Below are positions 8,555-36,723 of a stretch of 64,000 nt of DNA, one piece after another. Numbering within the stretch: position 1 is the stretch's first letter; each line of letters starts with the position of its first letter. A program made the position numbers and the translations under genes. The notes below the pieces were generated by a model, which worked only from the letters and a program-made list of their open reading frames with translations, ran no database searches and was not told the origin of the DNA. The DNA comes from Fibrobacterota bacterium (GTDB lineage: Bacteria > Fibrobacterota > Fibrobacteria > UBA11236): positions 1 to 64,000 of the forward strand of contig JAQBPN010000003.1 of the NCBI GenBank assembly GCA_028287505.1. The letters are read 5' to 3'.

Positions 8555-10717
8555 TTATGATGCGGGCATCCGCCGCAGTCGCAAAGCATTGGCGATGACC
8601 GAGACTGAACTGAGGCTCATGGCTGCCGCCGCAATCATTGGATTCAAGAGCAGGCCCGTGAATGGATAAAGTACGCCCGCCGCTACCGGTATTCCAAGGA
8701 CGTTGTAGACAAAGGCGAAGAAAAGGTTCTGTCGGATGTTCCGCATCGTAGCCTGGCTGATCTTGCGGGCGCGGATAATGCCTATGAGATCGCCCTTGAC
8801 CAAAGTTACTCCGGCGCTCTGTATGGCTACATCCGTTCCCGTCCCCATCGCTATGCCCACATTCGCCTGGGCCAAAGCAGGTGCGTCATTGACCCCGTCT
8901 CCGGCCATGGCCACGGTTTTTCCTTCCGCCTGAAGCCGCTTGATCACGTCCGCCTTTTGATCCGGAAGCACATCGGCGATGACTTGATCCAGTCCCAGTT
9001 TCCGGGCCACGGCTTCGGCGGTGGTGCGGTTGTCGCCGGTGAGCATGATAATCTTCAAGCCCTCTTGGTGAAGTTTTTCAATGGCCTCGGAAGCGGAGGG
9101 TTTGATGGGATCGGCCACCGCGAGAAGGGCGGCGGGTTTTCCATCCACGACGACGAACAGGATGGTTTGCCCATCTTTTCTTCGCTCCTCCGTTTTGAAC
9201 GCCAGGTCCAAAGGGTTGATTTTCAATTCTTCCAGAAGCGAGAGGTTTCCCAAGGAGACATCCCTTCCCGCGATTTTCCCTCGAACACCGTTGCCCGGTA
9301 TGGACACGAAGCCTTCGACCGCTGGAATCACAATCCCTTTGCTTTCGGCACCCTGAACGATGGCGGCAGCCAAAGGATGCTCGCTCCCTTGTTCCAGGCC
9401 CGCTGTAAGCCTTAAAATCTCATCCGGTTCTAAACCCGGAGCGGCTTCCAGTCCCACCAAGCTGGGTTTGCCAACCGTCAAAGTACCGGTTTTGTCCACG
9501 ACCAGGGTATCCACCTTGCGAAGGGTCTCGATGGCCTCGGCATTCCGGAATAGCACGCCCATGGAAGCCCCTTTCCCGCTCGCGACCATGATGGACATTG
9601 GAGTCGCGAGTCCCAGAGCGCAGGGGCAGGCGATAATGAGAACCGAAACCGCATTGACGATGGCATAGGCCAGGGACGGTTTGGGTCCAAGCCAGGCCCA
9701 TATGATGAACGTCAGAATGGCGATGAGGATGACCGCGGGAACAAAGTAGGCCGAAACCTGGTCAGCCAATTTCTGGATGGGTGCCCGGCTGCGTTGAGCT
9801 TCGGCCACCATGTTTACGATGCGGGCCAGCAGGGTTTCGGCGCCCACCTTTTCCGCCTGGAAAACCAGTGACCCGCGCCCGTTCAAGGTCCCGCCGATGA
9901 CGTGGTCGCCCTTGTGCTTTTCAACCGGAATGGGCTCTCCGGTCATCATGGATTCATCCACGGAACTATTGCCATCCAAGACCACTCCATCGACGGGAAT
10001 CTTTTCGCCGGGCCTCACCCGTAGACGATCCCCAACCTTGATTTGAGAAAGGGATATTTCCTCTTCCTGCCCGTCCTCCCGGAGAATCCGGGCCGTTTTT
10101 GGGGATAGTCCGAGCAGAGCCTTGATGGCCGACCCCGTGCGGCTCCTGGCTTTCAGTTCCAGAACCTGTCCCAGCAAAACCAGGGTGACGATGGCTGCGG
10201 CGGCTTCGAAATAAAGGCCTACCTGGCCATGCGCATCCCTGAAGGCCTCGGGAAAGAGACCGGGAAAAAGCGCGGCCACCACGCTGTAGCCGAACGCCAC
10301 CCCGACGCCCAAAGCGATCAAGGTGAACATATTCAGGCTTCGATTCAGGATCGAATTCCAGCCCCGAACGAAGAACGGCCAGGCTCCCCAAAGGACCACC
10401 GGACTGGCCAGAGCCAACTCAATCCACTTCCGGATTGCAGATGAGAAAATGGCCAAATGATCTCCCCGGATCATTTGGCCCATGGCCAAAAGAAGGAGCG
10501 GAGCCGTCAGGGCAACACTGACCCAAAATCGAATGCGCATTTCCTTCAACTCCGGGTTTTCCTCATCGTGCGCCGAAGTCAGGGTGCGCAGTTCCAAAGC
10601 CATCCCGCAAATCGGACAGCTTCCCGGGGCGTCCCGGATGATTTGCGGATGCATGGGACAGGTCCACTCGGTCTTCGTTCCCTTGGGAGCAGTCAGCGTC
10701 AAAGGTTCCATATCCAT
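8555..10717 (-). CDS. copA: Cu+-exporting P1B-type ATPase with N-terminal HMBD module
   Basis: 720 residues. The N-terminus lacks the usual GMxCxxC HMA domain and instead has an HMBD/YHS-like module (about 17-42, [19 protein letters not shown]). The core is complete: actuator loop [11 protein letters not shown], metal site [10 protein letters not shown] in helix 6, phosphorylation site DKTGTLT, SEHP nucleotide-site motif, and [11 protein letters not shown]. The Cu(I)-type membrane signatures YN ([11 protein letters not shown]) and MxxSS ([16 protein letters not shown]) are present, assigning it to the P1B-1 copper exporters. It moves Cu+ from cytoplasm to periplasm, where the multicopper oxidase could oxidise it. 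It lies 51 nt after the DUF1259 gene. Confidence 0.96.
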
Positions 10718-10768
10718 ATTAAAGCTCCAATTCGAAGGCCAAAGTAAGCGGAAGAGATCAGCAGGCAG

Positions 10769-11686
10769 CTAATCTTTTTTCTGCGTATCCAGCGCAGCTT
10801 TCACTCCGCGCGCCAGGCCCAGGGCTTTGCCCTTGCCCCAATAATGCAGGAATATGATGCGGGGCTTTTCCTCGATCATGTGTTGATGGATGGCCACGAT
10901 GTTGATGTCCGATTTCCGCAGCGATTTCAAAACGCCTTGCAGTTCTTCTTCCCGCATCGCGAAGTCCCCGTCCACCAGGGCATTCGCATCCGTTCCTGCG
11001 AAAGCGGCCCAGGTATTGACGCCCATTCCTTTGCCCGCTTCGCAGCCACAAGGCATCTGCGTTTTCCGCCCGAAGGTCAGTTTCAGCATTCCGTCCTTCT
11101 TCTCGCCTTCCGTGCCCAGGAGTTCCTCGATAGGTGTCGGAGTGATGTTGCTGGGCCCCGATATTTTTGGGCCCGGAAACCCGGTGGACAGTTGCGGATG
11201 GGCTTTGCGGATCTCCCTGACCTTTTCGAACGCTTTGCCCACGCCGCCTGCCAACCGGGACAGGCTATCATCCCCGCCGATGTGCATGAAATAGACTTTG
11301 GGCTCTTCGTAGAAGAAATGGTTGTGCAGGGCTATCACCTGCAAACCGTTTTCCAGGAGCACGCTCAGGACAGGATTGACTTCGTCCTGGAAGAGAACCA
11401 GATCCCCCATGACCATGGCTTCGGATTTGCCGCCGTCCGTGAACGCGGCCCAGGAGGTGAGGCCCATGAAGGGAGGCATGACGAAACCATCCACGGTGAT
11501 GGGGACATCATTCCGAGGGCTGGCTACTCTGTAGATTGATTCTTTGGCGTTCCAGGAACCCTTAAGGCCGGTCAACGCGGATATGCGCGTCGTGTCCGAC
11601 ACGATGCTTTTCCCATGCGCCTGGCAAAAGCAAAGAATCGACAGGACCATAAACAAGGATGGACGGGTGAAACTTGGAATTCGCAT
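10769..11686 (-). CDS. DUF1259 (LppY/LpqO-type) secreted protein
   Basis: 305 residues from the ATG at 11686 (ribosome site aagggg). A signal peptide (about 1-27, LFMVLSILCFCQAHGKS) is followed by two tandem DUF1259 repeats. Each carries the pattern V(N/D)xWAAF, a DGDxxxxxxE or GDLVLFQDE stretch, VIALHNH / IVAIHQH, and YFMHIGG / IFLHYWG. The repeated HxH-type motifs could bind metal, and these proteins are often found in metal or stress loci, but no reaction is established. It is the first gene of the minus-strand copper run and lies divergent to the DMT permease gene at 11809. Confidence 0.85.
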   Translation of the reverse strand: MRIPSFTRPSLFMVLSILCFCQAHGKSIVSDTTRISALTGLKGSWNAKESIYRVASPRNDVPITVDGFVMPPFMGLTSWAAFTDGGKSEAMVMGDLVLFQDEVNPVLSVLLENGLQVIALHNHFFYEEPKVYFMHIGGDDSLSRLAGGVGKAFEKVREIRKAHPQLSTGFPGPKISGPSNITPTPIEELLGTEGEKKDGMLKLTFGRKTQMPCGCEAGKGMGVNTWAAFAGTDANALVDGDFAMREEELQGVLKSLRKSDINIVAIHQHMIEEKPRIIFLHYWGKGKALGLARGVKAALDTQKKD

Positions 11687-11808
11687 TTTATCCCCTTGTG
11701 ATTCAAAATGACTGCCGGGGAAAACTAGTTTTTGCATATGGGGAATACTTGTACAACCGCTGATTGCGCCAAACGGAATTGAAAGGGTGAGAGAGGAGGG
11801 GTGATTCA

Positions 11809-12843
11809 TTGCGTTACATTGTCCTGGCCCTGATGGCCGCCTTGCTCTTTGGCGCATCAACGCCTTTTGGCAAGGTGCTTCTTTCCCAATGGTCCCCTCA
11901 GCAATTGGCGGGATGGCTTTATCTTGGCGCGGCCTTGGGTGTTTGCCTGCCCATATCGCTTGGAAGAAAAGGACTCTTCTCCGGCGTCATCAGCCGGGCG
12001 AATGTTTGGAGGCTGGCCGGGGCCATCCTGTTCGGAGGCATTCTGGGTCCGGTTTTTCTTCTGGCCGGACTTAAGCTGGCTTCGGCCTCTTCCGTTTCCC
12101 TGTGGCTTAACCTGGAAATGGTGGCGACGGCATTTATCGGCATCCTGTTTTTCCGCGATCACCTGGGAAAGTGGGGGTGGGTGGGGGCTGCTTGCATTTT
12201 CGCCGCTGGGGTTTTGTTGTCCCTCGGGGAGGGCGGAGCGGGGACCAAGGCGGGCGTGTTTCTTGCTTTGGCCTGCATCTGTTGGGGAGTGGATAACAAT
12301 CTGACCGCGCTCATCGACGGGCTGCTTCCAATCCAGAGCACATTCTGGAAGGGCCTTGTGGCAGGGCTTTTCAACTTGGCTTTGGGGATTTACCTGCACC
12401 CCATGCAGGGGACCTTGGAATCGGCCTTGGAAGGCCTGGCCGTGGGGGCCGTATCATACGGAGCCAGTATCGCGCTCTACATAAGCGCGGCCCAGGGTTT
12501 GGGCGCGGCGCGCAGCCAGATGCTGTTCGCTTCCGGCCCGCTCTTCGGACTGCTTCTTTCCCACTTTCTGCTCAGGGAGACGTTCCAAGTCCACCATGCC
12601 GTGGCGTTGTTTTTCCAGGCCGCGGGGGTATTTCTTCTGTTCCGGGATCAGCATAACCATGCGCATGTCCATCAAGCGATGGAACATACCCATTCGCATC
12701 GCCACGATGATGGGCATCATACGCATGCCCACGAGGGCCAGCCGGCTTCCCTCCGGCATACCCATCCGCATCCCCATGCGCCCATGGAGCATCGGCATCT
12801 TCATTGGCCGGATACCCATCACCGGCATTCGCACGGAGCTTAG
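11809..12843 (+). CDS. DMT (EamA) permease with long His-rich cytoplasmic tail
   Basis: 344 residues with a TTG start, chosen because gaggagg sits 10 nt upstream (11792-11798) and no ATG or GTG gives the full first helix. About ten membrane helices (residues 1-280) form two EamA repeats typical of drug/metabolite transporters. The last 65 or so residues (about 280-344) contain roughly 23 histidines in HxH patterns (HNHAHVH, HTHSHRH, HHTHAH). Such tails occur on metal permeases and metallochaperones, so a divalent-cation substrate or metal-gated activity is likely; this is inference. It is divergent from the copper run and lies upstream of the Mn riboswitch gene. Confidence 0.88.
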   Translation: MRYIVLALMAALLFGASTPFGKVLLSQWSPQQLAGWLYLGAALGVCLPISLGRKGLFSGVISRANVWRLAGAILFGGILGPVFLLAGLKLASASSVSLWLNLEMVATAFIGILFFRDHLGKWGWVGAACIFAAGVLLSLGEGGAGTKAGVFLALACICWGVDNNLTALIDGLLPIQSTFWKGLVAGLFNLALGIYLHPMQGTLESALEGLAVGAVSYGASIALYISAAQGLGAARSQMLFASGPLFGLLLSHFLLRETFQVHHAVALFFQAAGVFLLFRDQHNHAHVHQAMEHTHSHRHDDGHHTHAHEGQPASLRHTHPHPHAPMEHRHLHWPDTHHRHSHGA

Positions 12844-12929
12844 AGCCTGATTCTCCAAATCGTTTTCCGCAACAATGCATCGGAGCGCGCTTAACCGATT
12901 GCTTTGACGATAAGCGGATTAATTGTACT

Positions 12930-13083
12930 TTTGGAAGGTCCATTGGGGAGTAGTCGCCCTTCGCATGAAGGGGCCTGTGTCAACAGACTTGGTCGCAAGA
13001 CCATGGCGCAGGCGGCTCAAAAGGCTTGGCGAGACCGATGGGCATATCGCTTCCGATAGGCCGGCAAGCGATATGCCCATTGG
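12930..13083 (+). ncRNA. Candidate yybP-ykoY manganese riboswitch
   Basis: The conserved yybP-ykoY 5' element TTGGGGAGTAG is at 12943-12953, and the 3' element GGCGAGACC is at 13028-13036, about 85 nt apart as in the family. GGTC (12937-12940) can pair with GACC (13033-13036) as a short closing P1. The downstream gene encodes a UPF0016 Mn exporter, one of the classical targets of this Mn2+-sensing RNA. Immediately 3', a perfect 15-bp inverted repeat (13038-13052 with 13066-13080) can extend by three pairs (CC-G with T-GG, 13035-13037/13081-13083) into the conserved GACC. Aptamer and hairpin would then be mutually exclusive. No U-run follows the hairpin, so control may be translational or Rho-assisted. 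Confidence 0.72.
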
Positions 13084-13112
13084 CGTATTCGCCGGCCTGG
13101 AGAACATAACCC

Positions 13113-13685
13113 ATGGAAGCTTTCCTGATTTCAACCGGAGTCGTCGCCCTCGCTGAGATCGGCGATAAAACGCAGCTCCTGTCCCTGGTGCTCGCAGCCC
13201 GTTTCCGCAAACCCATTCCCATCGTTTTCGGAATCCTGATCGCAACTTTATTCAATCATGCTTTCGCCGGAGCCATAGGGTCTTGGCTCACCACCTTGGT
13301 TGGTCCGGCAACCCTACGGTGGGTTCTGGGTATTTCCTTTCTTCTCATGGCGGGCTGGACCCTGATTCCGGATAAGGTGGGCGACACGCCCGAGGACAAA
13401 GGCCGATTCGGCGTTTTCACGACAACTCTGGTGGCCTTTTTCCTGGCCGAGATGGGAGATAAAACCCAGATTGCCACCATCGCGCTGGCCGCGAAGTATG
13501 CGTCCCTTATTGCAGTGGTGGCCGGAACCACCTTGGGCATGATGCTTGCGAACGTGCCTGTCGTAATTCTTGGAGACAAAGCCGCGAAAATTCTGCCGCT
13601 GAAACTTATCCGCTCGATTGCAGCCGCGATTTTTGCGGTACTGGGCCTGCTGGCCCTTTTCAACGCGGGTCCGGGCCTGGGATAA
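13113..13685 (+). CDS. UPF0016/GDT1-family manganese exporter (TMEM165-like)
   Basis: 190 residues and about six membrane helices. It carries the two family signature motifs E-x-G-D-K-T, once in each half (EIGDKT at 15-20, EMGDKT at 113-118), which bind the transported cation. Bacterial members (Mnx, MneA and relatives) export Mn2+. The ATG at 13113 follows ctggag. The candidate Mn riboswitch directly upstream supports Mn2+ as substrate and inducer. A variable cytoplasmic loop (about 84-100, IPDKVGDTPEDKGRFG) joins the two halves. Confidence 0.93.
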   Translation: MEAFLISTGVVALAEIGDKTQLLSLVLAARFRKPIPIVFGILIATLFNHAFAGAIGSWLTTLVGPATLRWVLGISFLLMAGWTLIPDKVGDTPEDKGRFGVFTTTLVAFFLAEMGDKTQIATIALAAKYASLIAVVAGTTLGMMLANVPVVILGDKAAKILPLKLIRSIAAAIFAVLGLLALFNAGPGLG

Positions 13686-13850
13686 AAAAATCGAGCCCGC
13701 CATCCGACCAGCATAAAAACAAACGTCGATTTTCTTTCCGATGCGCCAGATGTCATGCCGTCCGGAGTGGTCGCGGAACGGGAGTTTGATATCGTAATAG
13801 TAGGTGCGAAAAAATAGCCCGGTCTTAAAAGAGGAAACAGGAGAACAGCC

Positions 13851-14357
13851 ATGGCTCGTAACAAGATGATATCGGGACTGATTGCGATTATGGTCGGCGC
13901 AGGCTTTTGCCACGAAAACAAACGGGAGTCCAGGCAGTGGTTGGATAAGTCAACCCAGGATGCCGTGCAAGCTTGCCATCGGAATGAACTCAAGTCCGCG
14001 GTGAACAGTTATGCATCGCGGACCATGGGCCGCTGGGAAGAAGCCCATCATCCGGGAATGAAAATTTCAGGAGTCCCGGCGTGGAATGCCGGCACGGGGT
14101 TCGCGTCTTCCCGGTATGGCTCAAGCCCGGCCTCGAACGATGTCTATGGGTTACGGTCCTTGGGACGCGCGGAGGCCTGGCAATCCGGGCAGTACATGTC
14201 CGAAAGAACTGCGCAATACGGTGATCACGCCGCCCCGCTTGCAACTCGCGATTTTTCCTATGATTTGCGCTCCAAGGGCCGGGCTGAAGCGTATGGAACC
14301 GGAACGGACTATTGCGAAGTGGGACCGGCCCGGGTGGAAAGACTCGGACTCAGATAA
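13851..14357 (+). CDS. Secreted protein with a duplicated YxLRSxGRAEA motif
   Basis: 168 residues with a good ribosome site (aacaggagaa) before the ATG. A hydrophobic N-terminus (about 6-20, MISGLIAIMVGAGFC) looks like a signal peptide; the Cys is not a good lipobox because Phe precedes it. The C-terminal half holds two copies of a short repeat, VYGLRSLGRAEAW (near residue 98) and SYDLRSKGRAEAY (near residue 138), separated by about 40 residues. I do not recognise a family. It stands alone between the Mn exporter and another small secreted protein. Confidence 0.65.
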   Translation: MARNKMISGLIAIMVGAGFCHENKRESRQWLDKSTQDAVQACHRNELKSAVNSYASRTMGRWEEAHHPGMKISGVPAWNAGTGFASSRYGSSPASNDVYGLRSLGRAEAWQSGQYMSERTAQYGDHAAPLATRDFSYDLRSKGRAEAYGTGTDYCEVGPARVERLGLR

Positions 14358-36692: not shown

Positions 36693-36723
36693 GCCGACCC
36701 CGGGAAAAGTTCCCGGGGTCGGC
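36693..36723 (-). terminator. Hairpin terminator downstream of the sigma factor gene
   Basis: A perfect 14-bp GC-rich stem (36693-36706 with 36710-36723) has a 3-nt loop and starts 10 nt after the sigma factor stop codon. In the minus direction it is followed by a weak U-containing stretch (ATCCATTTG), so termination may be partly factor-assisted. Confidence 0.65.

Follow-up and report, generated by a model that had tools for sequence, protein, structure and literature searches.

Manganese riboswitches of the yybP-ykoY class (RF00080) are well studied in their aptamer and in the terminator platform of Gram-positive members, whereas for Gram-negative members the route to the ribosome is less settled. 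In two reports, Mn2+ stabilises helix P1.1 against a competing hairpin (PMC6754395; PMC11087558). For Escherichia coli mntP, masking of the Shine-Dalgarno sequence (SD) and translational control acting together with Rho have been reported (PMC11647493), and for Vibrio parahaemolyticus mneA/terC no drop-off in reads is described (PMC13274385). A Bordetella relative is induced by Mn and yields an RNA of ~200 nt without Mn, which its authors read as a premature stop of transcription (PMC8546581). In the same source, Bordetella pertussis BP3410/BprK is a Mn-induced exporter behind a yybP-ykoY riboswitch, as is proposed here for the present locus; it differs in that its gene is annotated as a calcium:cation antiporter, and the likeness is one of description rather than of leader sequence.

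The leader analysed here lies in a 64-kb stretch of Fibrobacterota DNA, hereafter the window. It shares its aptamer sequence and structure, and the opposition of P1.1 to a downstream hairpin (H1), with the yybP-ykoY riboswitch of Lactococcus lactis and Xory of Xanthomonas oryzae; it differs from both in having no U-tract after the hairpin and in possessing a further helix (H2) within a stretch where the RF00080 consensus marks no pairs. E. coli mntP and alx are, like the window's element, Gram-negative members of the class.

A covariance-model search (cmscan) matched RF00080, aptamer plus expression platform, at positions 12927-13098 of the plus strand with 72 bits against a gathering cut-off of 45 (E 7.6e-17), bearing out the yybP-ykoY signature elements reported by the first-pass annotation. 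RF00080 is the sole Rfam family matched within the window, and this is its only match in the genome. The element is a new member of the known yybP-ykoY manganese riboswitch class. The P1.1 5′ strand, GTCCATTGG (12938-12946, plus strand), is followed by the conserved L1 core GGAGTAG (12947-12953, plus strand), whose columns are invariant in the 48-row alignment described below. The invariant L1/L3 core (GGGGAGUAG; UCAACA..ACUUG) and the GACC element are likewise present, as judged from the RF00080 alignment and the invariant columns, and the first two G of GGGGAGUAG form standard pairs with the CC of GACC at both positions in 48/48 rows. The P1.1 switch helix is able to form in the window with all nine pairs, and the folding energy of the leader is -98.9 kcal/mol (z -6.8), a value reached by 0/200 shuffles. 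At 12904-12931, TTGACG, 16 nt and TACTTT make a weak promoter-like arrangement, absent from the list returned by the scan, from which a start would fall at ~12938, in the P1.1 5′ strand.

The RF00080 match is followed after 14 nt by the start codon of a plus-strand ORF of 190 aa (13113-13685), in which PF01169 matches two stretches (144.2 bits). According to PMC7380456, the GDT1/UPF0016 family is defined by two E-x-G-D-(K/R)-(T/S) motifs, and the ORF carries two E-x-G-D-K-T copies, EIGDKT and EMGDKT. The first-pass annotation had placed the riboswitch before a UPF0016 Mn exporter; the family match agrees, and by family membership the product of this cation exporter gene is a predicted manganese exporter. 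Upstream lies a gene for an EamA-type transporter, ending at 12843, whose product has a long histidine-rich tail (12680-12840) that suggests metal handling; 8555-11860 on the minus strand holds a copper/heavy-metal P-type ATPase with an HMBD domain and, nearby, a DUF1259 protein, a metal-related neighbourhood. Downstream, a 168-aa ORF (13851-14357) has no Pfam or NCBIfam match and contains two similar stretches, YGLRSLGRAEA and YDLRSKGRAEA.

Relatives were collected by a GDT1 protein scan of bacterial and archaeal genomes, which gave 80 loci, nearly all labelled Pseudomonadota and mostly betaproteobacterial. RF00080 was found at gathering score next to GDT1 at 47 of the 80 (16, 10, 11 and 10 of 20 each). 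These 47 loci, among L002-L081, and the window form the alignment of 48 rows, the 33 loci without RF00080 being left unaligned; the row of L026 starts 6 nt before its cmscan hit, and those of L046, L068 and L081 stop short of the gene match. The 47 Pseudomonadota leaders have the same aptamer, the same P1.1/H1 exchange and the same gene, and most have H2. They differ in the switch strand, which is CCGATGGGC in the window and most commonly CCTTTGACC in the Pseudomonadota leaders; in the window both P1.1 and the H1 foot are fully paired.

The switch strand CCGATGGGC (13035-13043, plus strand) serves as both the P1.1 3′ strand and the H1 5′ foot, pairing 9/9 with GTCCATTGG and 9/9 with the H1 3′ foot, GCCCATTGG (13075-13083, plus strand), which is itself identical to GTCCATTGG at 8/9 positions. 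H1, the anti-P1.1 hairpin (13035-13083, plus strand), has arms 13035-13052 and 13066-13083, with 18 nt paired including one G-U, around a perfect core of 15 bp (13038-13052 with 13066-13080), precisely the repeat that had been noted. Because P1.1 and the H1 foot both pair with 13035-13043, the two helices compete for one strand. The earlier statement that the hairpin can extend into GACC captured a real overlap but understated the conflict, since all nine nucleotides of the P1.1 3′ strand are taken up by the H1 5′ arm; the ligand-bound aptamer and the hairpin should thus exclude each other, as that annotation had proposed. The exact mimicry of one strand by the other, together with the H2 pairing beside the SD, is an addition to it. 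As read from these strands, the predicted P1.1/H1 exchange is the known mechanism of the class, here without a U-tract.

Both competing helices are maintained among the 48 rows. P1.1 forms 300 pairs against a mean of 286 and a maximum of 298 in between-row shuffles (0/2000 as high), and the H1 foot 320 pairs against a mean of 305 and a maximum of 317 (0/2000 as high); the foot was read from aligned strands, since a simple 9-nt search often caught GGCCGG instead of the true foot. Within-row identity of the competing strands is modestly above shuffles (295/432 versus 286.7; 68/2000 as high). For the H1 and H2 pairs of the window, in the raw alignment without re-anchoring of H2, 76.0% of cells are paired compared with 68.4% when shuffled and 32-46% when slid, and 136 cells are changed on both sides compared with 71. 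Support for P1.1 taken alone is weaker: 69.8% of cells are paired against 62.6% when slid by +3 columns, and its covariation score of 0.108 rises to 0.180 on the same slide, probably because the strand is repetitive.

H1 folds in 48/48 rows, each time with the foot drawn from the P1.1 strand; of the 18 pairs it makes in the window, 14 are changed on both sides across rows, so that the arms are kept in relatives, a point on which the first-pass reading had been staked. Among perfect inverted repeats with loops of up to 30 nt, no other in the 64 kb is as long as its core; simulated windows of the same length (n = 20, Markov-1) held no repeat of at least 15 bp, the maximum being 13. The second longest repeat in the window, 14 bp with a 3-nt loop, lies at 36693-36723. 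Perfection of the repeat is the one feature that would suit an unrelated mobile or extragenic repeat landed after the aptamer. Such an origin was rejected as extremely improbable, given that the sequence is unique in the genome apart from its own other arm and that the hairpin stands at the same place in every row with covariation. The energy of H1 in the window (-36.8) is tied with that of L046 for the lowest among the 48 rows, and with so stable a hairpin Mn2+ would have to act before H1 forms.

The loop of H1 contains AGGCCGGC (13058-13065, plus strand), the exact 8-bp complement of GCCGGCCT (13091-13098, plus strand), which stands directly 5′ of an SD-like GGAG (13099-13102, plus strand) located 10 nt before the start codon. 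A full helix of at least 6 bp between the H1 loop and a stretch downstream of H1 is found in 46/48 rows, where shuffling gives an expectation of 2.8. An SD-like GGA follows the H2 core by 0-3 nt in 31 of those 46. The strands are conserved and covary. Since MAFFT had set the 3′ strand of H2 one column off in several rows, H2 was re-anchored row by row. Own-row pairing then exceeded between-row shuffles, with values as high in 0/1000 at offset -1, 2 at +1 and 4 at +6; offsets -2 (18/1000) and +2 (21/1000) were also above the shuffles, and offsets -3 and +7 were not (48 rows). The core is nearly invariant and its changes are few: GC to AU in two rows and CG to UA in one. The conserved H2 makes this platform a variant that the RF00080 structure does not describe. 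Titles and beginnings of abstracts on Mn riboswitches and their platforms gave no description of H2; the founding 2015 papers lie outside that set, and H2 may be in print there.

More distant riboswitches were drawn from RF00080 matches in 16/274 genomes of the class of one relative, 43/121 of one order, 3/3 and 1/1. The resulting 48 loci (L097-L144, some near-duplicates), with E. coli alx and mntP, make a second set of 50, of which 37 have a GDT1, MntP or TerC gene called downstream; the remaining 13 were read by eye. The best loop-to-downstream run reaches p ≤ 0.05 at 15 of the 37 loci (summed p 3.9 over all 37). The paired strands may differ entirely from those of the window and still be complementary, as with GCCGAGCTT and AAGCTCGGC (L106, L108), GACCGGGG and CCCCGGTC (L127) and, before MntP-type genes, AGGTTGGGC and GCCCGACCT (L137-L139). 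Many of the 13 loci read by eye have a very long H2 of 11-16 bp, and both of the genes tested among them are Na_Ca_ex (L119, L097). Over 96 rows (72 with distinct strands), the own-row sum for loop and downstream strands is 1842, compared with a permuted mean of 1436 and a maximum of 1564 (0/5000 as high). In this test L118 has no H1, L143 has no convincing H2, and in L110, L112 and E. coli mntP the highest-scoring run differs from the candidate beside the SD. The possible mntP helix beside the SD, GCTGGGG with CCCCGGT, does not exceed chance (as high a value was reached in a fraction 0.258 of 400 shuffles), and alx yields a low-complexity run only. By these comparisons of sequence, the covariation of H2 extends to more distant riboswitches standing ahead of other exporter families. 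One genome of the second set (G276) carries two riboswitch-GDT1 copies of identical platform sequence ~20 kb apart on contig 2 (L098 and L113), and a third riboswitch elsewhere.

From the sequences, their complementarity, conservation and covariation we infer the Mn2+ response, its direction, the level of control and a part for H2. With a probability of about 75%, the element is a Mn2+-responsive ON riboswitch working by P1.1/H1 exchange, its OFF state most likely acting at translation initiation and H2 helping to set the state. In the presence of Mn2+ the aptamer would close P1.1 (12938-12946 with 13035-13043) and remove the 5′ foot from H1. In its absence, 13035-13043 would pair with 13075-13083, the near-copy of the aptamer 5′ strand, giving the full 18-bp H1. 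The OFF state would then most likely fall on translation initiation, perhaps followed by Rho-dependent termination, rather than on intrinsic termination; H2, joining the H1 loop to the SD-side stretch, would probably help to decide whether the finished leader is ON or OFF.

The level of control is argued from what follows the hairpin. An intrinsic terminator, sought as a GC-rich hairpin with a U-tract, was rejected for the window: the scan of 12800-13900 found 0 terminator-like sites and the linker, CGTATTC, has no U-run, in keeping with the first-pass remark that no U-tract follows. With no such tract after H1, the OFF state is most likely translational. H1 might nevertheless stop transcription, intrinsically despite the missing U-tract or with the assistance of Rho, as in Gram-positive members; this we regard as unlikely. 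The ~200-nt Bordetella RNA is read as a premature stop (PMC8546581) and counts against a translational explanation, and Rho acts in E. coli mntP (PMC11647493). A run of at least four U within 12 nt after H1 occurs in 15/96 rows, and intrinsic termination may operate in some relatives; in the window it would not be by a U-run signal, and such a run is absent from 81/96 rows. Vibrio parahaemolyticus mneA/terC shows no read drop-off (PMC13274385). The 3′ strand of H2, located downstream of H1, could presumably not act on a stop there: being made after H1, it would have H2 act after read-through, at the ribosome or Rho.

What H2 might do can be approached through its geometry. It abuts the H1 3′ arm with a gap of 0 nt in 43/48 rows. 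Median lengths are 10 bp for H1 and 16 nt (12-29) for the crossing loop with the foot released, compared with 16 bp and 9.5 nt (4-21) for full H1. A 10-bp H1 with a 16-nt crossing loop makes a comfortable H-type pseudoknot. A rough test of reach is passed by 48/48 rows with the foot released and by 30/48 with full H1, which in this model favours formation of H2 together with P1.1; the test is crude, and the 30 rows pass even with H1 complete. H2 and a shortened H1 may therefore form an H-type pseudoknot, preferentially when P1.1 holds the H1 foot, and so latch the ON state, a tentative proposal. Long H2 helices (L119-L131, up to 16 bp) overlap the H1 apex, which would suit mutual exclusion of the two instead. 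The converse arrangement, somewhat more doubtful, has H2 forming in the OFF state directly against the SD and blocking the 30S subunit. The closeness of an SD-like GGA to the H2 core in 31/46 rows, and in the window an SD that begins immediately after H2, would fit such a block, whereas full H1 with H2 is sterically tight in 18/48 rows. Accessibility modelling on the 48 rows does not decide for the latch. The SD has a mean unpaired probability of 0.344 when the 3′ strand of H2 is left free, of 0.395 when that strand is blocked and of 0.374 under control blocks; blocking raises accessibility by more than 0.1 in 17 rows and lowers it in 9, while control blocking raises it in 9. No modelled state in the 48 rows clearly opens the SD, and the modelling gave no support to a candidate mechanism whereby H2 would release the SD from a local hairpin.

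The riboswitch is sparsely distributed around the window's genome. RF00080 was found in 1/6 genomes of the genus, 1/10 of the family and, under stricter filters, 1/167 of the phylum, in that case the window's own; GDT1 homologues occur in 13/167 genomes of the phylum. In a tree of 86 proteins, the window's GDT1 falls within the Pseudomonadota set, where it is joined by two proteins of its own genus (96/83), and lies far from the two homologues that another family of its class contributes (branches 4-6). The bootstrap of this tree had not settled, the 80 loci had been picked for their likeness to the window, and long branches lead to two of the three rows from the genus. The comparison, which concerns window positions 13113-13685 with L083, L084, L086 and L087, makes horizontal transfer of GDT1 into the genus likely on the evidence of the protein sequences. 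In a sister genome (G002; L084, minus strand, ~2053-2122) no more than the 5′ half of the aptamer remains, with GGTGAG in place of GGGGAG, running into the GDT1 start codon (RF00080 16.2 bits, E 0.71), and in a further same-genus genome (G004; L083) no RF00080 riboswitch was found at the GDT1 locus. The truncated relic in the one and the absence in the other suggest that the leader was probably present in the ancestor of the genus, with later decay or loss in these two.

The leader and its gene in the window were probably transferred as one between phyla, and a sister species retains a truncated relic of the riboswitch. It may be, as a tentative generalisation, that Pseudomonadota Mn riboswitches and the window's probably transferred copy share a platform with two locks, in which P1.1 pulls the H1 5′ foot and H2 pulls the H1 loop toward the ribosome-binding site. 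H2 would then be an unannotated helix with a function general to the class, used before several exporter families, and would read the aptamer state at the ribosome or Rho, not at a terminator. For the less settled Gram-negative route to the ribosome, the covarying helix from the loop to the SD side offers a concrete and mutable target, consisting of two 8-nt strands.
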